Shown: positions 16,351-42,335 of the stretch, piece after piece
How positions within the stretch are numbered: position 1 is the first letter of the stretch
How the letters are laid out: the number at the start of each line of letters is the position of its first letter
Source: Gammaproteobacteria bacterium
GTDB taxonomy: Bacteria; Pseudomonadota; Gammaproteobacteria; Pseudomonadales; Azotimanducaceae
Assembly: GCA_026706665.1 (NCBI GenBank)
Contig: JAPOYI010000030.1
Location: forward strand, 1 to 52,023
Length of the DNA: 52,023 nt
Reading direction: 5' to 3'
The notes under the pieces: generated by a model
What the model saw: the letters and a program-made list of their open reading frames with translations, nothing else
What the model was told of the DNA's origin: nothing
Databases searched by the model: none
Position numbers and translations under genes: made by a program

Positions 16351-16854
16351 CTACTCTCTCTCAATCAGCGGAACTGACTTATAACCGACGGCCCCGACCC
16401 ATCTATACCCGCGGGTTTCAGTCCATTGACTATCGAAAAATACATAGTTGTCATCGTTTTCATCATAACTAGTGATGTCACAGAAAATGTCCATGCACAG
16501 ATCTCCCTGGAACCTGATCGATAAGTCATACGTCTTCGGGTTAATATCAACTGCTCTAACCACTAGTCCCACCAACCGATCCAACTGGCGCCTCAACGGT
16601 GTCTCCGGCCCACAGTCCCTCCAGCCTCCAATAATGGACCCCTGGCATAAGAGCCGCCATGCGCAGTACACTATCAAACCAAACTCTGGATCATACAACC
16701 GCTCTAGTTCGGTTAGATGTTTGTTTTTTGATGGTATCGCTCGTGCGGTCTTTTCGCCAAAGCCAAGGCTAATCACAGATCCCGGACCTGAGCCTCCCAC
16801 TACACGCCAACACTCGACACCTTCTATCTGTCGAATGAGAGTCGCGATATTCAC
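16351..16854 (-). CDS. Cognate immunity-like protein of the RHS toxin
   Basis: 167 aa from GTG 16854. The start overlaps the RHS stop as GTGA (16854-16851), the tight coupling expected of a toxin-immunity pair. It shares an aligned core with the following gene: VISLGFGEKT, LIVYCAWRLLCQGSIIGGWRD, AVDINPKTYDLSIRFQGD, then NYVFFDSQW. It looks like a small cytoplasmic alpha/beta protein resembling DUF6188, with no signal peptide. Base composition is AT-rich for this genome: 16441-16500 has only 22 G/C of 60. That supports recent acquisition together with the toxin tip. Direct binding to the RHS C-terminus is inferred from position alone. Confidence 0.7.
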   Translation of the reverse strand: MNIATLIRQIEGVECWRVVGGSGPGSVISLGFGEKTARAIPSKNKHLTELERLYDPEFGLIVYCAWRLLCQGSIIGGWRDCGPETPLRRQLDRLVGLVVRAVDINPKTYDLSIRFQGDLCMDIFCDITSYDENDDNYVFFDSQWTETRGYRWVGAVGYKSVPLIERE

Positions 16855-25377: not shown

Positions 25378-26739
25378 CTACGCCTTGAACTCCCCGATGA
25401 TCCCCGAGAGCGACTCCTTCGCGTCGCCGAACAACATGCGGGTGTTCTCTCCGAAGAAAAGTGGATTGTCGACTCCCGAAAACCCCGAAGCCATCGATCG
25501 CTTCAGGACGAAAACCGTGCGTGCGCGGTCCACATCGATGATGGGCATGCCATAGATGGGACTGGCCGCGTCCGTGCGCGCCGCGGGATTGACCACGTCG
25601 TTGGCGCCGATGACCACCGCGACGTCGATGTTGTCCATGCGGGGATTCATGTCGTCCATCTCGACCAGTTGGTCGTAGGAGACGCTCGCCTCGGCGAGCA
25701 GCACGTTCATGTGGCCGGGCATGCGTCCCGCGACCGGGTGGATGGCGTAGCTGACATCCGTCCCGTTGTGCTCCAGCAGGTCGCCGAGTTCGCATACGAC
25801 GTGCTGCGCCTGGGCGACCGCCATGCCGTAGCCCGGCACGAAGGTCACCGAGGACGCCGCTTCGAGTATCAGGTACGCGTCTTCGACGTTGATGGGCCTG
25901 ACCTCGCCCTCCACCGCAGTCGCCGTCTTCGCCGCGCCGAAACCGCTGAAGAGCACGTTGCCGAGCGACCGGTTCATGGCCTTGCACATGATGTTGGTGA
26001 GGATGATGCCGGCGGCGCCGACAAGGGACCCCGCCACGATCAGGATGTTGTTGTTGATCGCGAAACCGGCTGCACAGGCGGCAAGCCCCGAATAGCTGTT
26101 GAGGAGCGAGATCACCACCGGCATGTCGGCCCCGCCGATGGGAATGACGGCCATCACGCCCAGCAGCAGCGCCAATCCCAGCAGTGCGAAGAACACCCAC
26201 GAATCCGGCTGTGGCCCCATGGCGAACAGCACGCCCGCCACGATCACCGCCGCCAGAGTCATGCCGTTGCAGAAGCGTTGGCCCGCAAACACGAGCGCGC
26301 GACTCGGCAGGACCTCCGAGAGCTTGCCCCAGGCGATGACCGACCCCGACGCCGTAACGCCGCCGATCAGCACCGACAGCATGACGACGACGCCGGTGAA
26401 CGTGGACACGTCACCGCGATAAAGCGCGGCCCACCCGACCAGCAGGCTCGCCACGCCGCCCGAACCGTTGAACAGCGCCACCATCTCCGGCATCGACGTC
26501 ATCTTGACCAGCCTCGACGCCAACTGGCCGATCATCGCGCCGATCAACACGCCTACCACGATCCACTCGTAGCTCAGGATCTGCTCGGACGCCAGGGTCA
26601 CGACGACAGCGATCAGCATGCCGGTGGAAGAAATGACGTTTCCACGCCGTGCCGTGGCGGGCGAGCCAAGCATCTTGAGCCCGAAGACAAACAACACCGC
26701 CGCGGCGATGTAGGCGAGGTTGATGTAGACCGCGTTCAC
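25378..26739 (-). CDS. pntB: NAD(P) transhydrogenase subunit beta
   Basis: 453 aa. About eight or nine membrane helices occupy the first ~265 residues (MNAVYINLAYIAAAVLFVFGLKMLG onward). The NADP(H)-binding dIII domain follows, with the markers VPGYGMAVAQAQH, YAIHPVAGRMPGHMNVLLAEA, GANDVVNPAA and the terminal VLKRSMASGFSGVDNPLFF. Length and content are normal. With the two alpha genes it forms the inner-membrane enzyme that uses the proton gradient to transfer hydride from NADH to NADP+. Its ATG overlaps the preceding pntAB stop by 4 nt, showing translational coupling. The RHS gene starts directly behind it. Confidence 0.97.
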   Translation of the reverse strand: MNAVYINLAYIAAAVLFVFGLKMLGSPATARRGNVISSTGMLIAVVVTLASEQILSYEWIVVGVLIGAMIGQLASRLVKMTSMPEMVALFNGSGGVASLLVGWAALYRGDVSTFTGVVVMLSVLIGGVTASGSVIAWGKLSEVLPSRALVFAGQRFCNGMTLAAVIVAGVLFAMGPQPDSWVFFALLGLALLLGVMAVIPIGGADMPVVISLLNSYSGLAACAAGFAINNNILIVAGSLVGAAGIILTNIMCKAMNRSLGNVLFSGFGAAKTATAVEGEVRPINVEDAYLILEAASSVTFVPGYGMAVAQAQHVVCELGDLLEHNGTDVSYAIHPVAGRMPGHMNVLLAEASVSYDQLVEMDDMNPRMDNIDVAVVIGANDVVNPAARTDAASPIYGMPIIDVDRARTVFVLKRSMASGFSGVDNPLFFGENTRMLFGDAKESLSGIIGEFKA

Positions 26740-27077: not shown

Positions 27078-28199
27078 TCAGCCCTGCCTGACAGCGTCAT
27101 TGACGATGGCGCCGTCCCGCGTCAGCACGCAGCCGGCCACGATGTCGTCCTCGGGATCGAGGACCAGCGTCTTCGCGTCGCGGTCCCAGAACGCTTCGAT
27201 GAAGTGCGACACGTTGGCGGCGTACATCTCCGATGCGTTTCGCGCCACGGTCGACGGCAGGTTGCCGCGCCCGTCCACCCTGACGCCGTTGATGACCGCG
27301 ACCTCCCCGAGAATGGCACCCTCCACGTTGCCACCGGACTCCACCGCCATGTCGACGACGACGCTGCCGGGCCGCATCGCCTCGACCATGTCGCGGGACA
27401 CGATCACGGGCGCCGGCCGCCCGAACACCTGCGCGGTGGTAATGACGACATCCGCGTCCGCCACCACCTGCTTCATGCCCTCTTTCTGCAGCGCCATCTG
27501 TTCAGGCGTCAGTTCATGGGCATATCCCTGCTCGGTCTGGCCAACCTCCCCCACGTCGATCTCGACAAATCTGGCGCCCAGGGAGCGCACCTCCTCCGCC
27601 ACGACCGGACGCGTATCGAACGCCTCCACGCGGGCGCCGAGACGCTTTGCCGTCGCAATCGCCTGCAGACCCGCGACGCCCGCGCCGATGACAAACACCC
27701 GAGCCGGCGCGATGGTCCCGGACGGCGTCATCATCATGGGGAAGATCTTCGGGCTCAACTCGGACGCGCGGGTCACGGCAGCATAGCCCGCCAGGCTCGC
27801 CTGCGACGACAGCGCGTCCATCTTCTGCGCCCGGCTCGTGCGGGGGATCATCTGCATGGAAATCGCGGTGACCCCCTGCTCGGCCATCGATCGAACCAGC
27901 GCCGTCGCGTTGAACGGGTCGAGAAAGCCGATATGGACCGTCCCGGCGCCGAGCCTTGCCACATCGTCTGCGCCGGGCTGCTCGACGCGCACGACGATTT
28001 CGGCGCCCAGGGCATCGTCCCTGCTGCCGACCGTCGCACCCGCCGCCCGATACTCCTCGTCAGGGAAACCGGATGCGGCGCCGGCGCCTGCTTCCACCAC
28101 CACGTCCAGGCCAAGTTCCACCAGTTTTCCTGCGCTGGCAGGCGTGCAGGGCGTGCGCAATTCTCCCGCGCGCCGCTCTCGTGGCGCTCCGATCAGCAT
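27078..28199 (-). CDS. pntAA: NAD(P) transhydrogenase alpha subunit, soluble NAD-binding part
   Basis: 373 aa from ATG 28199 (MLIGAPRERRAGELRTPCTP); the longer open frame upstream crosses into the divergent TRAP gene. The N-terminus aligns with alanine dehydrogenase/PntA proteins. The NAD-binding fingerprint is VIGAGVAGLQAIATAKRLGA. Downstream come FDTRPVVAEEVRSLGARF, VITTAQVFGRPAPVI and VVVDMAVESGGNVEG. It is the dI subunit that binds NAD(H) on the cytoplasmic face. First gene of the pntAA-pntAB-pntB operon. The 68-nt divergent gap to the TRAP gene should hold both promoters; I could not fix a convincing -35/-10 pair. Confidence 0.95.
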   Translation of the reverse strand: MLIGAPRERRAGELRTPCTPASAGKLVELGLDVVVEAGAGAASGFPDEEYRAAGATVGSRDDALGAEIVVRVEQPGADDVARLGAGTVHIGFLDPFNATALVRSMAEQGVTAISMQMIPRTSRAQKMDALSSQASLAGYAAVTRASELSPKIFPMMMTPSGTIAPARVFVIGAGVAGLQAIATAKRLGARVEAFDTRPVVAEEVRSLGARFVEIDVGEVGQTEQGYAHELTPEQMALQKEGMKQVVADADVVITTAQVFGRPAPVIVSRDMVEAMRPGSVVVDMAVESGGNVEGAILGEVAVINGVRVDGRGNLPSTVARNASEMYAANVSHFIEAFWDRDAKTLVLDPEDDIVAGCVLTRDGAIVNDAVRQG

Positions 28200-28267
28200 C
28201 GGCGAGTCCGTCCGTCGGGGTACACGGGCTAGGTTACAATCCTGCCTCCGTCTTTTCGAGCAAATCA

Positions 28268-29392
28268 GTGACTCGGCTAACCAATCGGTCGGCGGCCGTC
28301 GCCGTCGGCATCGCGTTTCTCGTCGGCTTGTTGGCGAGTCTTGCAATCCGGCCCATCGGGGAAGGCAGTCCCGCAACCACGGCCATATCGGACGAAGGGG
28401 GAGTCGCCGCATCGCCCCGGCTCCGCTGGCGCGTGCCCATCGCATTCGCGACAAACCTGCCGGTGCTCGGCGACAACATCCTGTACGTCCAGAACGCCGT
28501 TGAAACCGCTTCCGACGGCCGCATCGTCATGCAGCTGTTCGAGCCCGGCGAGATCGTGCCGGCCTTCAACATCGTCGACGCGGTGCGGGAAGGCAAGGTG
28601 CCCGCCGGTTACACGTGGCTCGGATACGACCAGGGCAAGATCCCCGCCTCGACGCTGATCGCCGCCGTGCCGTTCGGCATGGAGCCTTGGGAATTCAGCG
28701 CCTGGTGGTTCGACGCCGGCGGCCGACAGCTCGCGGAAGAGCTTTATGCGAAATATGACGTTCATCCGCTCTACTGTGGCCTGATCGGCCCGGAAACCGC
28801 CGGCTGGTTCCGCGAGCCCATCGAGAGTCTCGACGACATCGCGGGGCTCAAGATTCGATTCGCGGGTCTCGGCGGCAAGGTCATCGAGCAACTCGGGGCG
28901 TCCGTCACGATGATTCCGGGGGGCGAGATATTCCAGGCGCTGGAGAAAGGCGCGATCGACGCCTCGGAGTACTCGCTGCCGATCGTCGACGAGGCCCTCG
29001 GTTTCGACCGCATCGCGAAGATCAACTACTTTCCGGGATGGCACCAGCCTTTCAGCGCCGCGCACCTTGCGGTGAACAAGTCCGTCTGGGACAGCCTGGA
29101 CGCATCCCAGCGCGGCGTCTTCGAAACCGCCTGCACCGCGGGCGTCACCCGCAATCTCGCGCGCAGCGAGGCGGTGCAGGGACCGGTGCTCGCGAGCTTC
29201 GACGCAAGGGACGTGTCCACGCTGCAGTTGCCGGAACCCGTCCTGCGCGAACTGGAGCGGGTGGCCGAGACGGTGCTCGCGGAAGAGGCGGAAAGAGATG
29301 AGGACTTCCGCACGATCTACGCGGCTCAGCGGGAGTTCCGCGAGGCCTACGCGCGCTGGAAGCAGCTCGCCTACCTGCCGCGCGATTTCTAG
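28268..29392 (+). CDS. TRAP transporter substrate-binding protein, TakP-like
   Basis: 374 aa from GTG 28268, which directly starts a membrane-type signal (AAVAVGIAFLVGLLASLAI). The mature protein has the DctP-family pattern: LRWRVPIAFATNLPVLGD, then ESLDDIAGLKIRFAGLGGKVIEQLGAS, then PGGEIFQALEKGAIDASEY and PGWHQP. The last two motifs recall TakP, which binds 2-oxo acids as dimers, so pyruvate-like acids are a plausible ligand. It would deliver substrate in the periplasm to the two permeases that follow. A TACAAT at 28235-28240 could be a -10 element, but no good -35 accompanies it. Confidence 0.92.
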   Translation: MTRLTNRSAAVAVGIAFLVGLLASLAIRPIGEGSPATTAISDEGGVAASPRLRWRVPIAFATNLPVLGDNILYVQNAVETASDGRIVMQLFEPGEIVPAFNIVDAVREGKVPAGYTWLGYDQGKIPASTLIAAVPFGMEPWEFSAWWFDAGGRQLAEELYAKYDVHPLYCGLIGPETAGWFREPIESLDDIAGLKIRFAGLGGKVIEQLGASVTMIPGGEIFQALEKGAIDASEYSLPIVDEALGFDRIAKINYFPGWHQPFSAAHLAVNKSVWDSLDASQRGVFETACTAGVTRNLARSEAVQGPVLASFDARDVSTLQLPEPVLRELERVAETVLAEEAERDEDFRTIYAAQREFREAYARWKQLAYLPRDF

Positions 29393-29434
29393 TGATCCGT
29401 CAAGGGCTCTGACCCCCTTCAGGCCTCCACGCAC

Positions 29435-29983
29435 GTGACAGAACACGATCATCAGTCTGACCTTCCCGGCACGAAGTTCTCCAACGCCGTCGATCCCGTC
29501 ATCACCTGGATCGGCAACGCCGTCTCATGGGTTTGGATAGTCCTGCTTGGCGTCATAGTGATCAACGTGTTCATGCGCTACGCGCTGGGAGAAGGCCGCA
29601 TCGAATTCGAGGAAATACAGTGGCACCTGTATTCCATCGGCTTCATGATCGGCCTCGGCTACGCCGTCGTCCATGACGCGCACATTCGCGTCGACATCGT
29701 CCACGAAAGGTTGTCGCCCCTGACGCGGGCCTGGATCGACCTCTACGGCATCCTGCTCTTTGTCCTGCCGTTCACGGCCCTCATGCTCATCTACGCGGTG
29801 CCCTTCATCACCGACAGCTTCGTCACGTCGGAGACTTCTCCCTCTCCCGGCGGCCTGCCCTATCGCTGGCTGATCAAGTCCATGCTGTTCATCGGCTTCG
29901 CGCTGCTCGGGATCGCCGCCGTATCGCGGCTGACGCGGCTATGGGCGTATCTCTTCCTGCCCGGGGACCGCGATGCCCGCTAA
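29435..29983 (+). CDS. dctQ: TRAP transporter small permease (DctQ family)
   Basis: 182 aa from GTG 29435. It has four membrane helices with a loop carrying the family pattern RIEFEEIQWHLYSIGFMIGLGYAV and HIRVDIVHERLS. This is the DctQ-type subunit that pairs with the large permease in the inner membrane. It lies 42 nt behind the binding-protein gene and overlaps the next gene by 11 nt. Confidence 0.93.
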   Translation: MTEHDHQSDLPGTKFSNAVDPVITWIGNAVSWVWIVLLGVIVINVFMRYALGEGRIEFEEIQWHLYSIGFMIGLGYAVVHDAHIRVDIVHERLSPLTRAWIDLYGILLFVLPFTALMLIYAVPFITDSFVTSETSPSPGGLPYRWLIKSMLFIGFALLGIAAVSRLTRLWAYLFLPGDRDAR

Positions 29984-31334
29984 CGAGATCCTGGCGCTGG
30001 CGATGTTCGTCGCCTTCATCGCGCTCGTGTTCACCGGCTTTCCCGTCGCGTGGATTCTCGCCGGGCTGGCTGTCCTCTTTACTGCGCTCGCCATCGTCTT
30101 CGAAGTGGATTTACACCTGGCGACCGGCGTCGACTGGGCGTACACGAGCCTCTCCGTCGAACGCGTCTGGAACGTGATGGAGAACTGGGTCATGGTGGCG
30201 CTGCCCATGTTCATCTTCATGGGGCTGCTGCTCGACCGCTCGGGCATCGCGGACCGGCTGATGACGAGTTTCGCGCGGCTGTTCGGCCGCGTGGGCGGAG
30301 GGCTCGCCATCTCGGTGGCCCTGATCGGCGTACTGCTCGCCGCCACCACGGGCATTATTGGCGCTTCGGTGGTGCTGCTGGCGCTTCTAGGCCTTCCTGC
30401 GATGCTGCGCACGGGTTACGACCGGAGCCTCGCCTCCGGGACGGTCTGCGCGGTCGGCACGCTGGGCATCCTGATTCCGCCGAGCATCATGCTGGTGGTC
30501 ATGGCCGACCGCATGGCCATGTCGGTCGGCGACCTCTTTCTCGGCGCGGTGCTCCCGGGGCTGCTGCTCGGCGCGCTGTACGTCTCCTACCTCGTCGGGT
30601 ACGGCCTGGTGCGGCCCGATGGCGCGCCGAAGTTCGAACGTGCCGAACGGATCGACTTCGCCGCCATCCGTGAACTGGTCCTCGCCATCGTGCCGCCGTC
30701 GCTGCTGATCGTCGCCGTGCTCGGCAGCATCTTCTTCGGCCTCGCGACACCCACCGAAGCTGCCGGCGTCGGCGCCGCGGGCGCACTGCTCCTCGCGCTG
30801 GCCAATCGCGCGCTCGACAGGCGCGTCATGACGGAAGTGTTGCGCGAGACCACCCGCACCACCGCCTTCATATTCGGCGTGCTGATCGGCGCGACCGCAT
30901 TCTCGCTGGTACTGCGCGGACTGGGCGGCGACGAACTCATCGAGGACGCGCTCCTGTCGCTGCCGTTCGGTCCGACAGGCATCATCATCTGCATACTGTT
31001 CGCGACCTTCCTGCTCGGCTTCTTCCTCGACTGGATCGAGCTGACGCTGATCATCCTGCCGCTGGTCGCCCCGGTGGTCGCGACCCTCGGCTTCGACCCG
31101 GTGTGGTTCACGGTGATGTTCGCCGTGTGCCTGCAGACGAGCTTCCTGACGCCGCCGGTGGGATTCGCCATCTTCTACCTGAAGGGTGTCGCCCCACCGG
31201 AGGTGCGCGTGGTCGACATCTACCGGGGCGTCGCGCCCTTCATCCTGATACAGATCATCGGCCTGATGCTGATCTTCAACTGGGACGCCCTCGTGACATG
31301 GCTGCCCGAGCAGGCCTATAACGTGCGCCGATAG
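29973..31334 (+). CDS. dctM: TRAP transporter large permease (DctM family)
   Basis: 453 aa with about 12 to 14 membrane segments. Family marks include the early MENWVMVALPMFIFMGLLLDRSGIA, the TGIIGASVVLLALLGLP helix, SGTVCAVGTLGILIPPSIMLVV and the late QTSFLTPPVGFAIFYLKGVAPPEV. It is the Na+-dependent translocating subunit of the TRAP system. The ATG overlaps dctQ. The gene ends 2 nt before the stop of the convergent aldolase gene, leaving no room for a terminator between them. Confidence 0.95.
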   Translation: MPANEILALAMFVAFIALVFTGFPVAWILAGLAVLFTALAIVFEVDLHLATGVDWAYTSLSVERVWNVMENWVMVALPMFIFMGLLLDRSGIADRLMTSFARLFGRVGGGLAISVALIGVLLAATTGIIGASVVLLALLGLPAMLRTGYDRSLASGTVCAVGTLGILIPPSIMLVVMADRMAMSVGDLFLGAVLPGLLLGALYVSYLVGYGLVRPDGAPKFERAERIDFAAIRELVLAIVPPSLLIVAVLGSIFFGLATPTEAAGVGAAGALLLALANRALDRRVMTEVLRETTRTTAFIFGVLIGATAFSLVLRGLGGDELIEDALLSLPFGPTGIIICILFATFLLGFFLDWIELTLIILPLVAPVVATLGFDPVWFTVMFAVCLQTSFLTPPVGFAIFYLKGVAPPEVRVVDIYRGVAPFILIQIIGLMLIFNWDALVTWLPEQAYNVRR

Positions 31335-32780: not shown

Positions 32781-34430
32781 TTAGTTGTGCCTTTGGTCGA
32801 CCGACGCCCTCTTGGTTGAGACACCCTCAAGCAATTCGATGGTCCGCGCGACAGCTTCCCTGAGCCGAAACAACATCAACTCAGGTAGTTCGACCAGGTA
32901 GGACTCGCCGTGGATCGAGCCAATCTCGGTGTCTGCAATCACGCCTCTTGCTTCGTTCTTGGCAATCACGACATCCTGGGTACGAAAGTGCCTGATGAGC
33001 GCCTCGCGCCAAGCTGACCCCAACCGCGCTGCCGGTTTGCGGAGCAGCCGTATCATGACCGAGTCGATGGCATCCATGTCCGATGCCTCTCTTGGCGCCA
33101 AGGCGAGAACTCCTGCGTTGCCGGCCTGCCGGTAACATACCTCTCGATACTTCAGCCGAACCAACGCTCCATACGGTTGCCCCCGGAGCTTCACGACAGC
33201 GCGCCACGCACCAATCAGCGTGATGTAGTCGGCGTTTGCATGCAGACAGAGTCGCAACAGGTAGCTATCGAAGCCTGGATATACGTTAACGACTATGCGC
33301 TTGGCGCGGGTGTTCACGAATCGTGTCCGGATGAACGTGTCGATCGGGACCCTTTGTTTGGCTGCAACTTCTGGCAGGGGATTGCCTACGAGCAGCCAGT
33401 CCAACGGTTCGGGTAGCACATCCAGGAGCTCTGCTGGCAAGGATCGAATGCTGGCATTTGGACCTTCATGCCCTTTTGAGTATATGGCCCTGTTCCCGCT
33501 TACGTTTCGCGATGCCGCAAAGGCGCGCCTGGTCGGTTCGAGAACGTAGAGGTCGCTCCGACTACCGATCGCTTGCGCACCTTCGAAGTGATGAAAATCA
33601 GGCAACATCGCGTGCTGAACGAATCGCAGGCTGTGAATGACCGATTGCGCCTTGTACGCCCTGGCAAGTTGACGATCACCAAATCCGTAGGCCAGGAGCA
33701 CCCGCGTGGGTTCTCCTTGGACCAGGGACTGCACCGCGCGCCGAAGAAAGAGGCGCAGTCCTTCCTCGGTGTATGGCGGATCGGTGAAAACCAGGTGGCA
33801 GCGTTGCTGCAGTGAACGTGGGAGGGTGATGCGCAGATCGGAGAAAACGGGCCTGATCCGGAACGCGAGCCTGTGCCTTGTTGCATGAATGTATGCGAGG
33901 ATTCGTTCGTCGATGTCGACCACGACGACATCCGTGGATGGGGAAATCAGAGCCAGGGCGATAGATGTCATGTCCTGATCCCCGACCATCAGGACGGTAG
34001 CGTCGTGGAGGTTGAACGTGTTGTACATGTATGTCGCACGCCGCCAGACGGTCTCGACTGTCGCGGGCACATGGTCCAGCTGCCAGATCGGAGGCGGTCG
34101 ATCCGCGAGTACCTCGTCCAGTTTCGAGAGAATTGCAGATTCATTTGCTCGGGTAAGGGGCGAAGGTTGGGCCGCCCCAAGAACCCCGGACACAGCACGA
34201 CGGTGGCGCCCCTCGATGGTGAAACCCGCCGGAAGTTCCTGCACGAACGGGCGAAGGCTCTGTACGATTCCTTCGATAGAACTGCGTGACAACCCAGTCT
34301 TCACGACCAGGTCTGCCATCGGAGCAGGCTTGGTGGATGCGAGCAAAGCGACGACTGCGTGTGCGCGCCGGAGGTCGATGCCCCATTGGCCGCGAAGCTG
34401 GTCAAGTGCGGATTCGATGGTTGGGTTCAT
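32781..34430 (-). CDS. Bis-aminopropyl spermidine synthase-like protein
   Basis: 549 aa. Residues ~20-85 resemble a winged-helix unit (RRAHAVVALLASTKPAPMADLVVKTGLSRSSIEGIV). Residues ~140-290 carry the Rossmann core of the BpsA/DUF43 family: VLMVGDQDMTSIALAL (150-153 GDQD, where GDDD is usual), VVVVDIDERILAYI and VFTDPPYTEEGLRLFLRR. BpsA enzymes add aminopropyl groups to spermidine from decarboxylated AdoMet. The remaining ~250 residues (LDWLLVGNPLPEVAAKQRV ... VELPELMLFRLREAVART) are an extra domain that I do not recognise; archaeal BpsA is about 350 aa. It starts 6 nt after a sulfatase stop, so the two are almost certainly one operon. Substrate may differ from spermidine. Confidence 0.7.
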   Translation of the reverse strand: MNPTIESALDQLRGQWGIDLRRAHAVVALLASTKPAPMADLVVKTGLSRSSIEGIVQSLRPFVQELPAGFTIEGRHRRAVSGVLGAAQPSPLTRANESAILSKLDEVLADRPPPIWQLDHVPATVETVWRRATYMYNTFNLHDATVLMVGDQDMTSIALALISPSTDVVVVDIDERILAYIHATRHRLAFRIRPVFSDLRITLPRSLQQRCHLVFTDPPYTEEGLRLFLRRAVQSLVQGEPTRVLLAYGFGDRQLARAYKAQSVIHSLRFVQHAMLPDFHHFEGAQAIGSRSDLYVLEPTRRAFAASRNVSGNRAIYSKGHEGPNASIRSLPAELLDVLPEPLDWLLVGNPLPEVAAKQRVPIDTFIRTRFVNTRAKRIVVNVYPGFDSYLLRLCLHANADYITLIGAWRAVVKLRGQPYGALVRLKYREVCYRQAGNAGVLALAPREASDMDAIDSVMIRLLRKPAARLGSAWREALIRHFRTQDVVIAKNEARGVIADTEIGSIHGESYLVELPELMLFRLREAVARTIELLEGVSTKRASVDQRHN

Positions 34431-34436
34431 GTTTGG

Positions 34437-35936
34437 TCAGCGATAGGGAGACCAGTAGTTGCGTTTGTCGGACTTGAACCTGTACCGGCGGCGGGGGTAA
34501 GGCAGTGGATCCTGCACTCGCAATGTCCACCCGAGCAGCTTGGCCAGCATCTTCGATTGGACGTCCGCATGGTCCGGATGATCGAAGAGGTCATTCAGTT
34601 CAACAGGGTCCTCCGCCAGGTTGTAGAGTTGACCGTGTTCCTGCATATCGAAAATGAGCTTCCAGTCGCCACTGCGTATCGCGCGCATCGTTCCGCTTTG
34701 CGACCAGCCGTTCAACTCGTCGAAACCGATTGCCGGATGAAGCCCATCTTTGTACGCGTCATAGTCATCGTCGGCCGCGTAGTGCAATCCGCCGAAGCCG
34801 TGTTCCGCATAGGCGCTGTCGAATTCCTCGTCGGGATATTCGTTCCCCGTCAACAAGGGCCATAAGCTCCGTCCCTCAACGCCCCGCGGAATGTCCGTCC
34901 CTATGGCTTCGCAAAGCGTCGGCATGATGTCAGCCGTCGTGACGTGTGCTGAATGGGGTTTGTCACTGGCGACAATACCCGGACCCACGACCAGGACCGG
35001 GATGCGGATGAGAACCTCCGGCAATTCTGCACCCTTGCGTACCAGCCCATACTCACCCACATAGTCGCCATGATCCGAGAGGAAGATGACGATCGTGTTG
35101 TTCCGCAGACTTTTCGCATCCAGGTAGTCGAAGAAGCGTCTGACCTGGTCGTCGATCAATCGGAGCATTCCCAGGTAGTTGGACCGCGCGCGTGGGAGCT
35201 GCTCCGCATAGTCATGGAACGCTGTCTCGCCAAGGCGGCGCAACCATTGATACTTGAAGCCCTTCGTTTCAAGCGCCGATCGATCAGAGAGCGTTGGGGG
35301 CAGTGTTTCCGGTGGAAACATGGAGAAATAGGGCTCGGGCACCTGGTATGGGTTGTGTGGTTCGGGGAACGACAACCACAGGAAGAAAGGATCAGCCCCA
35401 GCGGGAATCCCATCGATCCAGTTCGTGGCGGCCGTCACCGCTCGGAATGGACACTGGACTTCAACGCCAAAGGGCGATGGGTCGAAGTCAGCACGCATTC
35501 GAAGGCTGGCCAGGTATTCGTCAAATGCCACCTCGTCATCTGTTCGGGCCTTGCCATATCCACCGTGGTGACCGAGGGGGAAATAGTAGTCCATCCGATC
35601 TGCATCCAGATGGGAGTGGTTTTTCCCGCAGAGCGCGGTTCTATACCCCCGCCGACGCATGACTTCGTAAAGGTCAGCCTCGAAGAACGCGTCTTCCCCG
35701 TTGTGATTTGTCCGTGCATGCGTCGCGCTGGGATACCGACCCGTCAACATGCTCACACGTGCCGGAAGGCAGGCAGGCATCGTTGTGTAAGCCCGATCAA
35801 ACCAGGTGCCCCGCGTGGCGAGACTGTCCAGGAAGGGAGTCGTATCGAGTTGAAATCCTTCGCGCCTCGATACATCGGCACGTTGCTGATCCGTCATGAT
35901 CACGACGACATTCGGTCTCAAGGCCATGACCTGCAT
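34437..35936 (-). CDS. Type I sulfatase
   Basis: 499 aa. Two possible ATGs, 35936 and 35927, differ by three codons. The alkaline-phosphatase-type sulfatase fold is complete: metal ligands in VVVIMTDQQRADV, the formylglycine motif Cys56-Leu-Pro58-Ala-Arg60 inside TTMPACLPARVSMLTGRYP, the KNHSH segment, SFPEPHNPY, and SDHGDYVGEYGL. The cysteine must be oxidised to formylglycine by an FGE or anSME. The FGE-like protein in this window lacks the needed cysteines, so the activator must be elsewhere. No signal peptide is evident, so it is probably cytoplasmic. Choline-sulfatase- or arylsulfatase-like activity is possible. It is cotranscribed with the aminopropyltransferase-like gene. Confidence 0.9.
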   Translation of the reverse strand: MQVMALRPNVVVIMTDQQRADVSRREGFQLDTTPFLDSLATRGTWFDRAYTTMPACLPARVSMLTGRYPSATHARTNHNGEDAFFEADLYEVMRRRGYRTALCGKNHSHLDADRMDYYFPLGHHGGYGKARTDDEVAFDEYLASLRMRADFDPSPFGVEVQCPFRAVTAATNWIDGIPAGADPFFLWLSFPEPHNPYQVPEPYFSMFPPETLPPTLSDRSALETKGFKYQWLRRLGETAFHDYAEQLPRARSNYLGMLRLIDDQVRRFFDYLDAKSLRNNTIVIFLSDHGDYVGEYGLVRKGAELPEVLIRIPVLVVGPGIVASDKPHSAHVTTADIMPTLCEAIGTDIPRGVEGRSLWPLLTGNEYPDEEFDSAYAEHGFGGLHYAADDDYDAYKDGLHPAIGFDELNGWSQSGTMRAIRSGDWKLIFDMQEHGQLYNLAEDPVELNDLFDHPDHADVQSKMLAKLLGWTLRVQDPLPYPRRRYRFKSDKRNYWSPYR

Positions 35937-36806: not shown

Positions 36807-36901
36807 GGATTGTCCTCCCCCGGGCCAATCCCGCCCGATTCACAACGCGCCGCCCACACCCGTCGCCCCACCGGCGGCCCGTAGATTGGTTGAATGACAG
36901 T

Positions 36902-37924
36902 ATGATTAAACCACCGACGGGGTTCAGAGTCATTGCCGTGAAGCAGGAAGCACCCAGCAAAGCGACCGCCGGAGTCCGGCGGGCCACCGCCGTGGCGCAT
37001 CCCAACGTCGCGCTGGTGAAGTACTGGGGCAAGGGTTGTGCCGCGACGAACACCCCCGCAACTCCATCGCTCTCCATCACCCTGGACACGCTGAAAACGA
37101 CGACCACGGTGGTGGAAGTGCGCGGGACCGATCACATCGTCGTGAACGGGCGGCAGGTCGCCGATGCGAAGATCGAAGGTTTCCTGCGTCTCCTGCGGGA
37201 GAACTTCGACATACCTCCGCTCGCCGTGGATACGTCCAACAACTTTCCGACGGCCTCGGGACTGGCATCTTCCGCATCCGGCATGGCGGCACTAGTCACA
37301 GCGATCAACGGGGCCATGCGCCTGGACCTTACCCTCGAAGAACAGTCCCGATGGGCTCGTCGGGGCTCGGCTTCCGCGGCGCGGTCCATGGCGGGCGGCT
37401 TCGCCATCCTCGACGCCCGGAACGGCTGGGCCGCCGAACAACTGCTCGCGCCCGACGATTGGGCCATCAATGTGGTCGTCGCGGTCACTTCCCGCGAACG
37501 CAAGACCGTCGGCTCCACCGAGGGCATGGAACTGTCGCGGCAGACATCCCCGTTCTACGAGGCGTGGCTTGATTCGACCGTGAGGGACTGCGACGCGGCG
37601 CTCACCGCCATCGCACACCGGGACTTTGCCGCACTTGGAAGCGTTGCCGAAGCGAGCTGTCTCAGGATGCACGCGGTGATGCTGACCACAGACCCGCCGC
37701 TCGTCTACTGGAACGCCGGCACCATGGAAGGGATACGACGCATTCGCGCGTTACGCGAAACCGGGGTCGGCGTGTTCTTTACCATCGACGCCGGACCCCA
37801 GATCAAGGCCGTCTGTCTTTCCGGCGACACCGGGAAGGTGCGCGCCGCGCTCGACGACCTTCCCGGCGTGCGGGACATCCATGTCACGGGTCTCGGATCC
37901 GGCGCGACATGCGTGCCGTCGTAG
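36902..37924 (+). CDS. mvaD: Diphosphomevalonate decarboxylase
   Basis: 340 aa from ATG 36902. TTG 36890 or GTG 36938 are possible alternatives, since no clear Shine-Dalgarno fixes the start. GHMP-family signatures of this enzyme are present: ATAVAHPNVALVKYWGK, then NNFPTASGLASSASGMAAL for ATP and substrate, RRGSASAARSMAGGF and FTIDAGPQIKAVCL. It converts mevalonate 5-diphosphate to isopentenyl diphosphate with ATP, the last step of the classical pathway. It heads a cluster with phosphomevalonate kinase 36 nt downstream and the HMGR-mevalonate kinase fusion behind it. Confidence 0.93.
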   Translation: MIKPPTGFRVIAVKQEAPSKATAGVRRATAVAHPNVALVKYWGKGCAATNTPATPSLSITLDTLKTTTTVVEVRGTDHIVVNGRQVADAKIEGFLRLLRENFDIPPLAVDTSNNFPTASGLASSASGMAALVTAINGAMRLDLTLEEQSRWARRGSASAARSMAGGFAILDARNGWAAEQLLAPDDWAINVVVAVTSRERKTVGSTEGMELSRQTSPFYEAWLDSTVRDCDAALTAIAHRDFAALGSVAEASCLRMHAVMLTTDPPLVYWNAGTMEGIRRIRALRETGVGVFFTIDAGPQIKAVCLSGDTGKVRAALDDLPGVRDIHVTGLGSGATCVPS

Positions 37925-37960: not shown

Positions 37961-38926
37961 GTGGTTGATCCGCGCGTCATCGAGGCGACCGCTCCCGGCA
38001 AACAGGTGCTCACGGGAGAGTACGCCGTGCTGGCAGGCGCCCCGGCCCTGGCTGCCGCCGTGGAACGTCGCGTCACGTGCCGGATCACACCGGCGACGTC
38101 AGGTGGCTGGTCGTTCGTCAGTCACGGCTTCGAGGCACGCGCCGCGCATCCCCGCGACGACCTGCCGGACGCCGGTCCCGCCGCGCTCGCAAGGTCTGCC
38201 ATGACGAGTCTCGACGTCGATTCGCGAACACTGCCCAAGCACGTGGACATCCGGATCGACTCCCGGCCCTTCTATCAGGACGCCGAAAAGCTGGGATTCG
38301 GGTCCAGCGCAGCCTGTGCCGTTGCCGTCACCGGCGCGTTGGCCGAACTGGCCCGCACGACCCCGACCCTGGAACACGCGTTGGCGACACACCGCGGACT
38401 GCAGGGCCGCGGCGGCAGCGGCGTGGATGTCGCCGCGTCCTGGTGCGGCGGCGTCATCCGGTACCAGGACCGCCGCCCGCGAAAAGCCAAGCTGCCGCCC
38501 GACATACACTACATGTTCGCGTTCACCGGAGTCGGCGCCGACACCCCCACCCTGGTTCGGCGTTTCGATGCGTGGCGGGCGGGGGGATCACCGCCGGAAC
38601 TGCGCGCCCTGGTGCAATCCGCCACGGCTGTCGCCGAGCCGGGAACCGATTTCCTGGAAGCGCTGGCCGACTACATCGATGCCCTGCTCGCACTCGATCG
38701 CGCCGCCCGGATCGGCATCTTCTCCCCCCAACACCTGCGCGCGGCCAGCCTTGCCAAAGCGTCTGGCGTCCTCTATAAACCGTGCGGCGCCGGCGGCGAC
38801 ATGGGCATGGGCGTATCGCGCGACCCCGACGCGCTCGCCGCCTACCGGGAGCGCATCGAGCGGGAGGGTTTACTCGTCGTACCGGCAGAGATTTCACCGC
38901 ATGGCCTACAAATCCGACTCCGCTAG
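37961..38926 (+). CDS. Phosphomevalonate kinase (GHMP kinase)
   Basis: 321 aa from GTG 37961 (MVDPRVIEATAPGKQVLTGEYAVLAGAPALA). GHMP kinase features are present: the first-strand APGKxxLTGEYAVL, the phosphate loop KLGFGSSAACAVAVTGAL, the GRGGSGVDVAASWCGG segment and a final GAGGDMGMGVS motif. GEYAVL near the N-terminus and the position between diphosphomevalonate decarboxylase and mevalonate kinase make phosphomevalonate kinase the best call. It would phosphorylate mevalonate 5-phosphate. Its last 26 nt overlap the start of the fusion gene, implying coupled translation. Confidence 0.88.
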   Translation: MVDPRVIEATAPGKQVLTGEYAVLAGAPALAAAVERRVTCRITPATSGGWSFVSHGFEARAAHPRDDLPDAGPAALARSAMTSLDVDSRTLPKHVDIRIDSRPFYQDAEKLGFGSSAACAVAVTGALAELARTTPTLEHALATHRGLQGRGGSGVDVAASWCGGVIRYQDRRPRKAKLPPDIHYMFAFTGVGADTPTLVRRFDAWRAGGSPPELRALVQSATAVAEPGTDFLEALADYIDALLALDRAARIGIFSPQHLRAASLAKASGVLYKPCGAGGDMGMGVSRDPDALAAYRERIEREGLLVVPAEISPHGLQIRLR

Positions 38927-41156
38927 AGGTTCGCGAATATCCGGCTTCTTCAAGCTGCCCATCAATGATCGTATTGCGGCGCTGCGCGAACGCGGCCTGC
39001 TGACCGACGAAGACGTCCAGGCGCTGACCTCTGGCGAGCACACGCTCAAGGCGGCGGTCGCCGACAGGATGATCGAGAACGTCGTCGGCGTGCTGGGCCT
39101 GCCTTTCGCCGTGGCGCTCAATTTCCTCGTCAACGGCAAGGACTACATCGTGCCGCTTTCCGTGGAGGAACCCTCCATCGTTGCCGGACTTTCGGGCGCC
39201 GCGCGCACGGCGCGCCTGTCCGGCGGATTCACTGCCGTCACGACAGACCCGGTCCTGATTGGACAGGTACAGGTGGTCGACTTCCAGGACGCCCAGGCCG
39301 CGATGGCGTCCCTGCTGGCGCACAAGGACGAGATCGTCGATCTGGCCAACAGGCTGCATCCCAACATGGTGGCTCGGGGCGGCGGCGCGCGGGACATAGA
39401 AGCGTTCCATCACACGGCGCCTGAAGACGGCCGCGAGATGGTCGTTCTGCACCTGTTGGTGGACACCCGCGATGCCATGGGAGCCAACCTCGTGAACGGC
39501 ATGTGCGAAGGGGTCGCAGGTCTCGTCGAGGCGATCACCGGCGGAAAGGTGTTTCTGCGCATCCTGTCGAATCTCACGGACCGGGCACTGGTGCGGGCGT
39601 CCGTCCGCATACCGGCGCACAACCTCGATGTCAGGGGTTACTCCGATGCCGAAGTACGCGATGGCATCATCCTTGCCAGCGACCTCGCGCTGGTGGACCC
39701 GTACCGGGCGGCGACCCACAACAAGGGCATCATGAACGGTGTTGACGCTGTCGCCATCGCCACGGGCAACGACTTCCGCGCGATCGAGGCCGCCGCGCAC
39801 GCATATGCCGCGCGCGACGGCAAGTACCGGGGCCTGACGCGCTGGAGCAGGAACCCGAGCGGCGATCTCGTCGGAGAAATAGACATGCCGATGAAGGTCG
39901 GCACCGTGGGCGGCGCGCTCGAAACCAATCCCATCGTTCGCATCGCCCATCGCCTGCTCGGCTCTCCGAATGCGACGGACCTGGCCGGCGTGATGGGTGC
40001 CGTGGGTCTGGCCCAGAACTACGCCGCGCTGCGTTCACTCGCCACCGCCGGTATTCAGCAACATCACATGACGCTGCATGCACGCAGCGTGGCATCGGCC
40101 ACCGGTGCTCCCGACGAACTGTTCGACACTATTGTCGAAGCGCTGGTGGAGTCGGGCGAGATCAAGATCTGGAAGGCGCGGGAAATTGCCGAACGCTTGC
40201 AACGCGGCGCACCCGCCATCGTGGCATCCGAGCGTGGCGAGCGCAGCGCGGCCCACGGCAAGGTCATCGTTTGCGGCGAGCACGCCGTTGTCTATGGCCG
40301 TTCAGCTCTCGCCGCACCCATACCGCTGGCGGTCGAAGCCCGCGTGCTCGACGCCAGCGAGGGAGTGCACCTGATGATCCCCAACTGGGGGCTGGATGAA
40401 CAGATCAGGCAACTCGAGGATCACCCTCGGGGTTTCGCGGCCATCCTGGCTATGCTGCTCAAGCGGCTCGACCTGGCCGACCGGCCCATGACCATCCAGG
40501 TCTTCCCCCATGTGCCCCTGGCCAAGGGTCTCGGCGGCTCTTCCGCGATGGCGGTCGCCGTCATACGCGCGCTGGATGACCACTATGCGCTCAAACTGTC
40601 GGACAGCGAAGTCAACGGCTTCGCCTTCGAGTGCGAGACGGCAGCGCATGGCACGCCTTCCGGCGTCGACAACACCGTCGCAACCTACGGTGAACCAGTC
40701 CTGTACCGGAACCCCGGGACGCCCGAGTTTCACCCGGTAGCGCCCGAGCGCAAGATCCCCATGGTGATCGGCATCTGCGGCAGGGACAGCCTGACATCGC
40801 ATACCGTCGCTCAGGTACGCGCAGCACGCGAGCGGCAGCCTGTGCTGTACGAGGCGATATTCGATCAGATCGAGTCGTTGACCCAATCCGCGGCAAAGGC
40901 CGTGCGCGAAGGCGCGCTCGACGACCTGGGCGAACTCATGAATCTCTGTCACGGAAGCCTGAACGCGCTGCAGTTGTCGACGCCAGAGCTCGAAGAAATG
41001 GTTCACATCGCACGCTCGCATGGCGCCATCGGCGCGAAACTCACCGGCGGCGGCGGCGGCGGATCCATCATTGCGCTCTGCCCCGAGTCCTCCGATGATG
41101 TAGTCGCCGCCCTGGCGACCGGCGGCTTCAAGGCACTCAAGTTCGAGATAAGCTAA
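38901..41156 (+). CDS. Fusion: class II HMG-CoA reductase joined to mevalonate kinase
   Basis: 751 aa from ATG 38901; an upstream in-frame extension lies inside the kinase gene and is discarded. Residues ~15-430 are a full class II HMG-CoA reductase: VEEPSIVAGLSGAART (Glu), DTRDAMGANLVNGMCEG (cofactor), THNKGIMNGVDAVAIATGND with Lys275 and Asp291, and HHMTLHAR with His389. Spacing matches the Pseudomonas mevalonii enzyme closely. Residues ~450-751 are a mevalonate kinase: AHGKVIVCGEHAVVYG, PLAKGLGGSSAMAVAV, GTPSGVDNTVATYG and KLTGGGGGGSIIAL. The linker is only about 20 residues. One chain would thus carry HMG-CoA through mevalonate to mevalonate 5-phosphate. No stop or frameshift separates the halves. 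Confidence 0.95.
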   Translation: MAYKSDSARGSRISGFFKLPINDRIAALRERGLLTDEDVQALTSGEHTLKAAVADRMIENVVGVLGLPFAVALNFLVNGKDYIVPLSVEEPSIVAGLSGAARTARLSGGFTAVTTDPVLIGQVQVVDFQDAQAAMASLLAHKDEIVDLANRLHPNMVARGGGARDIEAFHHTAPEDGREMVVLHLLVDTRDAMGANLVNGMCEGVAGLVEAITGGKVFLRILSNLTDRALVRASVRIPAHNLDVRGYSDAEVRDGIILASDLALVDPYRAATHNKGIMNGVDAVAIATGNDFRAIEAAAHAYAARDGKYRGLTRWSRNPSGDLVGEIDMPMKVGTVGGALETNPIVRIAHRLLGSPNATDLAGVMGAVGLAQNYAALRSLATAGIQQHHMTLHARSVASATGAPDELFDTIVEALVESGEIKIWKAREIAERLQRGAPAIVASERGERSAAHGKVIVCGEHAVVYGRSALAAPIPLAVEARVLDASEGVHLMIPNWGLDEQIRQLEDHPRGFAAILAMLLKRLDLADRPMTIQVFPHVPLAKGLGGSSAMAVAVIRALDDHYALKLSDSEVNGFAFECETAAHGTPSGVDNTVATYGEPVLYRNPGTPEFHPVAPERKIPMVIGICGRDSLTSHTVAQVRAARERQPVLYEAIFDQIESLTQSAAKAVREGALDDLGELMNLCHGSLNALQLSTPELEEMVHIARSHGAIGAKLTGGGGGGSIIALCPESSDDVVAALATGGFKALKFEIS

Positions 41157-41237: not shown

Positions 41238-42335
41238 ATGAGTACACCTGCGCGCGTAGTCGTTCTGCCGGACCACGAAGGACCGCTGGAGATCCGCGAG
41301 ATGGACCTTCCCGATCCGGGGCCGACACAGGTGGTTGTCCGGCAATACGCCTCCGGCATCTGCCACTCCCAGCTGCATCAGATGCATGGTCCCCGCCTGA
41401 AACCTGCGTTGCTCGGGCACGAATCTACCGGCATCGTCCTGAAGAAAGGCAACGCCGTCACCCATGTCGACGAGGGTGACACGGTGCTGCTCACCTGGGT
41501 GCCGCGCGACGCGGCGGGCATCGAGGACGCGCCCCAACGCATCAGTCTTGAACTGCCCGGCGGCGGTGTTGCATCCCACGCCGTGTTCACCTGGGCCGAC
41601 AACACGATCGCCGACCACCAGTTCGTGGTGAAGGCCGACGATGACATCGCGAAGGACGTGACCGCCATCGTCGGCTGCGCGGTCATGACGGGCGCCGGCG
41701 CGGTGCTCCATACGGCCGACGTGCAGGAAGGAGAGAGCGTGGCGGTCTTCGGCGTGGGAGGCGTCGGCCTGTCGGCCATCTGCGGCGCCCGCATGCGTCG
41801 CGCGAACCCGATCATCGCAGTAGACGTCAATGACGAGAAGCTTGCGTTCGCCAAGCGGTTCGGGGCGACGCACGGCGTCAACGCGTCAGCGGGCGACCCG
41901 GTGGAACAGATTCGCGCCCTGGTGGACCATCCCAACGACCTGGCCGTCGGCGGCGCTCCCGTCACCGGCGTCGACTATGCCTTCGACTGTATCGGCCTCA
42001 AGACCACCATGGAGCAGATCGCGCCTGCCTGCCGGCCCGGCCATTTCGGCGCCCGCCGCGGCGGCACCGCGGTCCTCGTCGGCATCCCGGGTACCAACCT
42101 GGAACTGAATGCAGGCGCGATGATCATGTTCGAGAAGCAGTTGCGGGGCAGCTTCGGCGGATCGTGCTGTCCCGACCGCGATTTCCCGATGTTCCTCGAC
42201 TGGCACGCGCGGGGTGAACTCGACCTCGAAGCGCTTGTCACGGAGCGCTACCGCATCGACGACATCAACGAAGCCACGACGGCTCTCGAGGAGGGCAGGA
42301 TCGCCGGCCGTTCGATTCTCGTGTTCGACGACTGA
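41238..42335 (+). CDS. Zinc-dependent alcohol dehydrogenase (MDR family)
   Basis: 365 aa from ATG 41238, with GAGGAG 7 nt upstream. The catalytic zinc ligands are visible in SGICHSQLH (Cys) and LLGHESTGIV (His-Glu). The Rossmann fingerprint is VAVFGVGGVGLSAICGARMR, followed by IIAVDVNDEKLAFAKRFGATH. A coenzyme-pocket segment with YAFDCIG and a dimer segment KQLRGSFGGSCC fit class III-like dehydrogenases. The usual four-cysteine structural-zinc lobe is missing: the equivalent stretch reads VPRDAAGIEDAPQRISL. It should oxidise an alcohol or a thiol adduct with NAD(P)+. It lies 82 nt after the mevalonate cluster and probably has its own promoter. Confidence 0.92.
   Translation: MSTPARVVVLPDHEGPLEIREMDLPDPGPTQVVVRQYASGICHSQLHQMHGPRLKPALLGHESTGIVLKKGNAVTHVDEGDTVLLTWVPRDAAGIEDAPQRISLELPGGGVASHAVFTWADNTIADHQFVVKADDDIAKDVTAIVGCAVMTGAGAVLHTADVQEGESVAVFGVGGVGLSAICGARMRRANPIIAVDVNDEKLAFAKRFGATHGVNASAGDPVEQIRALVDHPNDLAVGGAPVTGVDYAFDCIGLKTTMEQIAPACRPGHFGARRGGTAVLVGIPGTNLELNAGAMIMFEKQLRGSFGGSCCPDRDFPMFLDWHARGELDLEALVTERYRIDDINEATTALEEGRIAGRSILVFDD

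Follow-up and report, generated by a model that had tools for sequence, protein, structure and literature searches.

A natural fusion of HMG-CoA reductase and mevalonate kinase, probably a bifunctional enzyme of the mevalonate pathway in Gammaproteobacteria

A single gene from a member of the gammaproteobacterial family Azotimanducaceae encodes a class II HMG-CoA reductase (HMGR) and a mevalonate kinase (MVK) in one polypeptide, and the product is very probably bifunctional, with a biosynthetic role in the mevalonate pathway. The gene lies in the window, i.e., the whole 52,023-nucleotide stretch of contig JAPOYI010000030.1 (assembly GCA_026706665.1) that was analyzed. Literature searches on the fusion and related topics turned up no description of an HMGR-MVK fusion. 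The gene is organized as follows.

38901..41156, + strand: fused HMGR/MVK gene, 751 amino acids (aa), stop codon at 41154-41156
38931..40193, + strand: class II HMGR domain, residues 11-431, including a putative C-terminal flap (TIGR00532 and alignment with a solved class II enzyme)
39357..39377, + strand: cofactor-helix motif HPNMVAR, residues 153-159, of the form HxNxxxR
40197..40238, + strand: interdomain linker, residues 433-446, variable among orthologues
40239..41153, + strand: MVK domain (GHMP kinase), residues 447-751 (TIGR00549, invariant residues, best solved match 2hfs)

Translation bears out the preliminary description, which had reported a single 751-residue frame without a stop at 38901-41156 (+ strand) holding a complete HMGR and a complete MVK, enzymes of consecutive steps: both halves exceed curated cutoffs, and nine catalytic residues are kept in 51 of 51 full-length fused copies. 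Pfam places HMG-CoA_red at residues 21-394, GHMP_kinases_N at residues 517-597, and GHMP_kinases_C at residues 664-738, all above cutoff. Among NCBIfam models, TIGR00532 matches residues 4-394 with 399.8 bits (cutoff, 259.95) over model positions 15-395 of 395, and TIGR00549 (mevalonate kinase) matches residues 451-726 with 235.2 bits (cutoff, 163.05). No thiolase family in Pfam or NCBIfam matched the protein, which is thus not a fusion of the MvaE type. The MvaE protein of Enterococcus, an acetoacetyl-CoA thiolase fused to a class II HMGR (PMC10070635, PMC13001223), likewise unites two enzymes of the mevalonate pathway in one natural protein, but its thiolase is N-terminal to the HMGR, whereas here the HMGR is N-terminal and the MVK is C-terminal. 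The two steps joined in MvaE are, moreover, nonconsecutive, with the synthase step between them, in contrast to the consecutive HMGR and MVK steps.

Conservation was assessed over 71 fused loci, reduced to 58 distinct ones after identical duplicates were dropped and to 51 after removal of 7 cut at the locus end. In the reductase half, E90, K275, D291, and H389 are invariant (51/51) and correspond to the catalytic Glu, Lys, Asp, and His of class II HMGRs. The Lys275, Asp291, and His389 singled out beforehand are therefore all present, as is the Glu of VEEPS, which is E90 by its position in the alignment with a solved class II enzyme; that alignment spans residues 11-431 and so runs through the region of the C-terminal flap, a domain of three helices in class II enzymes. 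The best solved matches to this half include 9v7y (394.6 bits), 1qax (390.1 bits), and 6dio. The Pseudomonas mevalonii-type enzyme (1qax) has the same catalytic residues but is free-standing. In the kinase half, K454, E460, S547, E579, and D590 are invariant in the same 51 copies and correspond to a set of MVK residues known from the rat enzyme, namely, Lys, Glu, Ser, Glu, and the catalytic Asp. The best solved match to this half is a mevalonate kinase, 2hfs (157.7 bits). Identity is 39% to the kinases of two Anaerolineales loci (L034 and L035) and about 23 to 30% to free-standing kinases of other Gammaproteobacteria at the loci compared. Both 2hfs and the Anaerolineales kinases belong to the same GHMP kinase family but are unfused.

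The fusion is carried by 23 of the 37 examined genomes of the window's family, a search of all 37 revealing no further HMGR, and it also occurs in Salinisphaera and other Gammaproteobacteria, representing several lineages; one of the orthologue searches relied on exact peptide patterns and so reaches close relatives only. The draft state of the window's genome (252 contigs) is the sole point in favor of an assembly artifact or of neighboring genes joined by chance. However, other assemblies contain 31 fusion loci, of which 27 are complete (4 are cut at contig ends), and the same open frame recurs in Salinisphaera strains and in three genomes of the window's genus that consist of one contig each (G002, G004, and G008). 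Such agreement among assemblies refutes an artifact, to which we give practically no credence; the stop or frameshift at about 40170-40260 that would have spoken against the fusion was not found, and other assemblies have the frame open there. A plasmid-borne fusion was also rejected: 57 plasmid records match, 0 of them cover 80% of the query, and the best 20 of the 57 matches fall on the reductase half, one extending to residue 473.

Fused sequences fall on one side of a branch in the trees of both domains (support of 100/98 for HMGR and 91/93 for MVK), suggesting that a single fusion event likely lies behind all fused copies. The trees comprised 23 of the 51 fused sequences with 18 (HMGR) or 14 (MVK) free-standing ones and were midpoint rooted; some free-standing sequences are long-branched, and joins among them may be false. 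Pairwise identities of the two domains covary across the fused copies (r = 0.93, 1,275 pairs). Seven unfused gammaproteobacterial loci (L173 to L179) also hold an HMGR, a decarboxylase relative, and an MVK on one stretch, but there the HMGR and MVK genes are separate, about 1.9 to 9 kb apart, and neither domain tree places them with the fused sequences.

The genes around the fusion form a cluster consistent with a mevalonate pathway.

36890..37924, + strand: diphosphomevalonate decarboxylase (TIGR01240, 234.2 bits; cutoff, 171.35)
37961..38926, + strand: GHMP kinase, probable phosphomevalonate kinase (GHMP_kinases_N above cutoff)
41238..42335, + strand: zinc-dependent alcohol dehydrogenase (Pfam ADH_N and ADH_zinc_N)

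The last 26 bases of the GHMP kinase gene are shared with the start of the fused gene. Its product scores below both kinase models (TIGR01220, 54.6 versus 165.7 bits; TIGR00549, 59.6 versus 163.05 bits), and its probable identity as a phosphomevalonate kinase follows from gene order; relatives of it adjoin the fusion at other loci too. At eight loci, tblastn recovered the order decarboxylase, kinase, HMGR-MVK, and IDI with an HMG-CoA synthase nearby, five of them in Salinisphaera (L023, L025, L026, L032, and L033), one labeled Lysobacterales (L024), and two in Woeseiaceae (L027 and L028). Neighbors of about 481 to 485 aa at two further loci (L010 and L012) were rejected as HMG-CoA synthases and are amidases. 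The alcohol dehydrogenase is the downstream neighbor of the fusion in several relatives, and its putative link to the pathway is one of position. Between 36600 and 41400, we found no promoter-like sites and 2 terminator-like sites (versus 2.5 in shuffled sequence), and there were no Rfam matches anywhere in the window.

Neither DXR nor IspH, markers of the MEP pathway that bacteria ordinarily use, was matched in any of the 23 family carriers, and the same searches were positive for each in 9 of 14 control genomes. The mevalonate pathway therefore appears to replace the MEP pathway in carriers, for which the fused gene is in turn predicted, on family knowledge, to be essential. Type 1 IDI exceeded the cutoff in 22 of the 23 carriers (G005 lacks an IDI match); type 2 IDI did so in 3 of 58 genomes, none of them carriers. 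Five family genomes lack DXR, IspH, and HMGR alike, one of them 64% complete (G006) and four 91 to 100% complete (G011, G018, G023, and G036), so absence in drafts does not always imply another route.

In the proposed reaction sequence, the N-terminal HMGR would use two NAD(P)H (NADPH is the probable form) to reduce HMG-CoA to mevalonate with release of CoA, the tethered MVK would phosphorylate mevalonate at the expense of ATP, and the adjoining kinase and decarboxylase would carry phosphomevalonate to IPP. Fusion would set a 1:1 enzyme ratio and place an ATP-driven, effectively irreversible step beside a reversible one, so that flux would be pulled toward IPP; such coupling is plausible and, like both activities and their direction, is what we infer from knowledge of the two families. 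True substrate channeling, in which the reductase would hand mevalonate to the kinase active site before it could mix with the bulk solvent, goes further. Consecutive enzymes share one frame in all 51 full-length copies, and the kinase comes after the putative C-terminal flap of the reductase, as channeling might favor; however, the linker varies from 10 to 37 aa and 0 of its 14 query positions are invariant. This variability suggests that the domains do not dock in a fixed geometry and makes channeling unlikely. Fixed stoichiometry and proximity of the two domains are a plausible benefit of the fusion.

The enzyme might instead serve salvage or degradation, with external (e.g., host) mevalonate imported, the kinase leading to IPP, and the reductase oxidizing the surplus to HMG-CoA. 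The P. mevalonii reductase is degradative and oxidizes mevalonate to HMG-CoA, enzymes of its type are the closest solved structures to the reductase domain, NCBIfam labels the TIGR00532 family "degradative," and HMG-CoA synthase is unmatched in the window's genus. The cofactor helix points the other way. P. mevalonii HMGR is reported to use NADH, with Asp146, Leu148, and Leu152 as determinants (PMC10070635); the equivalent residues of the fusion are His153, Asn155, and Arg159. The published form of the helix is Dx(V/L)xxxL in NADH-dependent (degradative) and (H/Y)xSxxxR in NADPH-dependent class II enzymes (PMC13370337). Among the 51 fused copies, it reads HxKxxxR in 29, HxNxxxR in 12 (the window's copy included), and HxRxxxR in 10; the NADH-type Asp is thus His in every copy, and of 18 free-standing relatives, 4 have Asp here (L083 to L086). 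The first and last positions fit the NADPH motif in 51 of 51 copies but the middle Ser is absent, so cofactor use is uncertain, with family knowledge indicating that it is probably NADPH. Since the NADH-type Asp is missing, a biosynthetic role is probable, whatever the family label says. The synthase gene beside the fusion at the eight loci, mostly in Salinisphaera, also speaks against salvage, and carriers in which DXR and IspH were not found must derive their IPP from mevalonate. A salvage role is accordingly quite improbable.

The biosynthetic route needs a source of HMG-CoA. No more than 6 of the 23 carriers gave a strong match to HMG-CoA synthase, leaving the substrate source unexplained in the other 17, and all 9 genomes of the window's genus, 3 of them single contig, were without a match. 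An archaeal-type synthase was rejected as the missing enzyme: TIGR00748 exceeded its cutoff in 0 of 58 genomes and was unmatched in the genus's 9. Sub-cutoff matches in carriers (G020, 72 bits; G033, 101 bits; G022, 130 bits) are not tied to the mevalonate pathway, since DXR-bearing genomes have them too (e.g., G010, G017, and G053). A similar gap is reported for most Legionella species (PMC13001223). Genomes of the window's genus contain methylcrotonyl-CoA-carboxylase-like genes, a hydratase gene adjoins the carboxylase cluster (L165 and L166), and, given the lack of a synthase match, HMG-CoA may come from leucine. Tentatively, the carboxylase and a methylglutaconyl-CoA hydratase could make HMG-CoA in this genus, perhaps in most family carriers, and the fusion could drive it irreversibly to IPP before HMG-CoA lyase splits it, comparable to the use of leucine for sterols by trypanosomatids.

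Overall, the fusion naturally couples the HMGR step to an ATP-driven kinase step, and several lineages have retained it. It may be of use in terpenoid engineering, and its presence in named Salinisphaera strains opens it to experimental test. It brings out the gap at HMG-CoA synthase in 17 of the 23 carriers, it shows a single gammaproteobacterial family changing over from the MEP pathway to the mevalonate pathway, and, if the leucine-fed route is true, these bacteria would have an essential mevalonate pathway fed by leucine.

The fused gene occupies one uninterrupted frame, as the preliminary description had claimed, and lies beside two of the other genes listed here.

36890-37924, diphosphomevalonate decarboxylase, upstream of the fused gene
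37961-38926, GHMP kinase, probable phosphomevalonate kinase, overlapping the fused gene by 26 bases
38901-41156 (+), fused HMGR/MVK gene, one open frame of 751 aa
G000:C47:29028-29495 (in the window's genome), type 1 isopentenyl-diphosphate isomerase (IDI)

Both the N-terminal class II HMG-CoA reductase (HMGR) half and the C-terminal mevalonate kinase (MVK) half score above the curated cut-offs of Pfam and NCBIfam, which bears out the claimed joining of the two enzymes. The best stretches of the 40 distinct solved sequences matched fall either within the reductase half (at most residues 11 to 433) or within the kinase half (starting no earlier than residue 444), and none of the 40 spans both. 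The GHMP kinase scored 54.6 bits, below the phosphomevalonate kinase model's cut-off of 165.7, and is named a probable phosphomevalonate kinase because of its gene position. A zinc alcohol dehydrogenase gene (41238-42335; no NCBIfam model above cut-off) lies downstream of the fusion and is near it in several relatives too.

Elsewhere, the window encodes a 549-aa protein with a branched-chain polyamine synthase (BpsA) C-terminal domain (32781-34430, -; 116.7 bits; no NCBIfam match), a sulfatase (34437-35936, -), a sulfatase-modifying-factor (FGE) domain joined to PEGA domains (5813-7585, +), a 2,841-aa protein that matches an RHS repeat and contains bacterial Ig-like (Big_2) stretches (16851-25376, -), and an NAD(P) transhydrogenase beta subunit (PNTB; 25378-26739, -). 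TRAP transporter genes for DctP, DctQ, and DctM (27956-31334, +) lie some 5.5 kb ahead of the mevalonate genes.

The HMGR-MVK fusion is a real and conserved feature. When one genome per species was scanned with exact peptide patterns, which reach close relatives only, 33 loci were returned: 31 with the fusion (27 of them complete and 4 truncated by a contig end) and 2, from Anaerolineales, with a free-standing MVK. Among the fused loci are those of Salinisphaera hydrothermalis C41B8, S. japonica YTM-1, Salinisphaera sp. Q1T1-3, a Woeseiaceae MAG, Chromatiales MAGs, and Candidatus Azophilus lithoversatilis (Candidatus Azotimanducaceae, Pseudomonadales). In a sample of 58 genomes, the fusion was present in 23 of the 37 from the family Azotimanducaceae (here called carriers), compared with 0 of the 21 others from the order Pseudomonadales. 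In two carriers (G001 and G025) it is divided between two contigs, one piece on each, and one draft genome (G003) has two different copies (G003:C191:3863-6112 and G003:C162:59312-61558), which share 73% and 68% identity with the window's. Of 369 evenly sampled Gammaproteobacteria, 51 gave matches at an E value of 1e-10 or better; nine of these, counting the window's genome, carry the whole fusion, one (G237) has a fused piece cut at a contig end, and no fusion occurred among the rest whose loci were examined.

The 71 loci with fused frames yielded 58 distinct proteins, 51 of them full length. Nine positions, which we take to be the catalytic residues of the Pseudomonas mevalonii (HMGR) and rat (MVK) enzymes, are unchanged in all 51: K275, D291, and H389, proposed earlier as catalytic along with a Glu that corresponds to E90, and K454, E460, S547, E579, and D590 in the kinase. 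Invariant columns number 99 of 413 in the reductase and 44 of 294 in the kinase; the linker, which is 10 to 37 aa long, has none among its 14. The two halves show correlated pairwise identities (r = 0.93, 1,275 pairs). In maximum-likelihood trees of 23 fused rows with 18 (HMGR) or 14 (MVK) free-standing rows, the fused rows fall on one side of a branch with support of 100/98 for HMGR and 91/93 for MVK; the MVK tree is the weaker of the two (93% of 200 bootstrap trees, with long branches meeting). These sequence patterns are most simply read as the outcome of a single fusion event, after which both halves descended together.

In the fused enzyme, the HMGR domain would convert HMG-CoA to mevalonate via two hydride transfers, and the tethered MVK domain would phosphorylate the product. 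Parts of one source (PMC10070635) describe the HMGR reaction as reversible and the C-terminal flap of class II HMGRs as shutting over the active site. ATP-driven phosphorylation beside a reversible HMGR would draw the reaction forward, and the fusion would set the supply of both enzymes at 1:1. The kinase directly follows the flap region and so may ride on a mobile element, and the variability of the linker speaks for a flexible tether and against a tunnel between the domains.

NCBIfam labels the reductase family "degradative." As set out in sections of a July 2026 preprint (PMC13370337, after Miller and Kung), NADH enzymes carry Dx(V/L)xxxL and NADPH enzymes (H/Y)xSxxxR. The fused rows have HxKxxxR (29 rows), HxNxxxR (12, including the window's), or HxRxxxR (10). 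Asp occupies the first position in 4 of the 18 free-standing relatives (L083-L086); in the remaining 14 this position holds Ala, Ile, Leu, or Ser and agrees with neither motif. An NADH-type class II HMGR accepts NADPH as well after one Asp-to-Lys replacement, according to portions of PMC12292504. We infer that the fused enzyme probably uses NADPH or both cofactors and works in the biosynthetic direction.

Full-text searches of open-access papers, aimed at the fusion and at related topics, turned up no description of an HMGR-MVK fusion; subscription papers or domain-architecture databases may list it. The portions examined of a 2026 review of bacterial isoprenoid pathways (PMC13001223) name the two activities of MvaE and IspDF fusions and leave this one unmentioned. 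We rate natural fusion of mevalonate-pathway enzymes as a known kind and the HMGR-MVK combination as a new variant.

HMG-CoA synthase was sought with PF08540, a 489-aa family synthase (P0002), and the archaeal-type TIGR00748, added because PF08540 failed to pick up some archaea, being positive in 4 of the 14 controls. Strong matches occurred in six carriers (G012, G013, G016, G019, G022, and G030) and by none of the three queries in the other 17, two of which gave weaker scores (G020, 18.5 bits to P0002 and 72 to TIGR00748; G033, 101 to TIGR00748; TIGR00748 cut-off, 353). None of the nine genomes of the window's genus (G002, G004, and G008 being one contig each and G006 a noncarrier) matched any query. 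Elsewhere among the carriers the gene adjoins the fusion, so it looks to have been lost or replaced in this genus.

PF01039 carboxyltransferases were present in all 10 genomes tested, 5 of them from the window's genus. The top-scoring group in G004 (L171:9158-10765), the only genome in which identity was checked, best matched Pseudomonas aeruginosa methylcrotonyl-CoA carboxylase beta (772 bits), nearly equal to two chains labelled acetyl-/propionyl-CoA carboxylase (770 to 771 bits), against about 270 for the classical propionyl-CoA type. By eye, a small presumed DUF35/OB-fold-like protein lies downstream of the carboxylase genes in L170 and L171, and L171 also has what we take to be a thiolase-like protein; the two may form an acyl-CoA condensing pair. 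A second cluster, present in both G000 and G004, encodes an HMG-CoA lyase-like protein (173.8 bits, below the cut-off of 246), a carboxyltransferase whose best solved match is methylcrotonoyl-CoA carboxylase (475.9 bits), a protein that by eye resembles a biotin carboxylase, and an enoyl-CoA hydratase whose sequence does not tell its substrate. This cluster (L165, L166) directly precedes genes that, by eye, we take to resemble dnaA, dnaN, recF, and gyrB. We hypothesize that leucine breakdown supplies HMG-CoA in the window's genus; leucine feeds sterols via HMG-CoA in Trypanosoma brucei, as parts of PMC5993337 report.

All PF00368 HMGR matches in the 37 family genomes fall within the fusion or its pieces (G001, G025), in 23 genomes; three genomes of the same order have a free-standing HMGR. 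The MEP-pathway markers DXR (TIGR00243) and IspH (TIGR00216) were found in the same 30 of the 58 genomes, IspH above cut-off in 29 and as a fragment in G038. Both occur in all 21 order genomes outside the family, in 9 of the 14 family genomes that lack the fusion, and in none of the 23 carriers; each search was positive in 9 of 14 control genomes. Five family genomes with no DXR, IspH, or HMGR match count against a neat pattern. One (G006) is only 64% complete; the others (G011, G018, G023, and G036), listed as 91 to 100% complete, reflect either a gap in the assembly or some unknown route. HMG-CoA synthase adjoins IDI in G018 and G036 (L190, L191), with HMGR absent from the stretches examined. 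Type 1 IDI exceeded its cut-off in 22 of 23 carriers (exception, G005). HMG-CoA synthase, decarboxylase, kinase, HMGR-MVK, and IDI genes stand together in Salinisphaera (L023, L025, L026, L032, and L033), in a locus labelled Lysobacterales (L024), and in Woeseiaceae (L027 and L028). Given the missing DXR and IspH and the grouped genes, the mevalonate pathway appears to substitute for the MEP pathway in carriers, and the fused gene should be essential.
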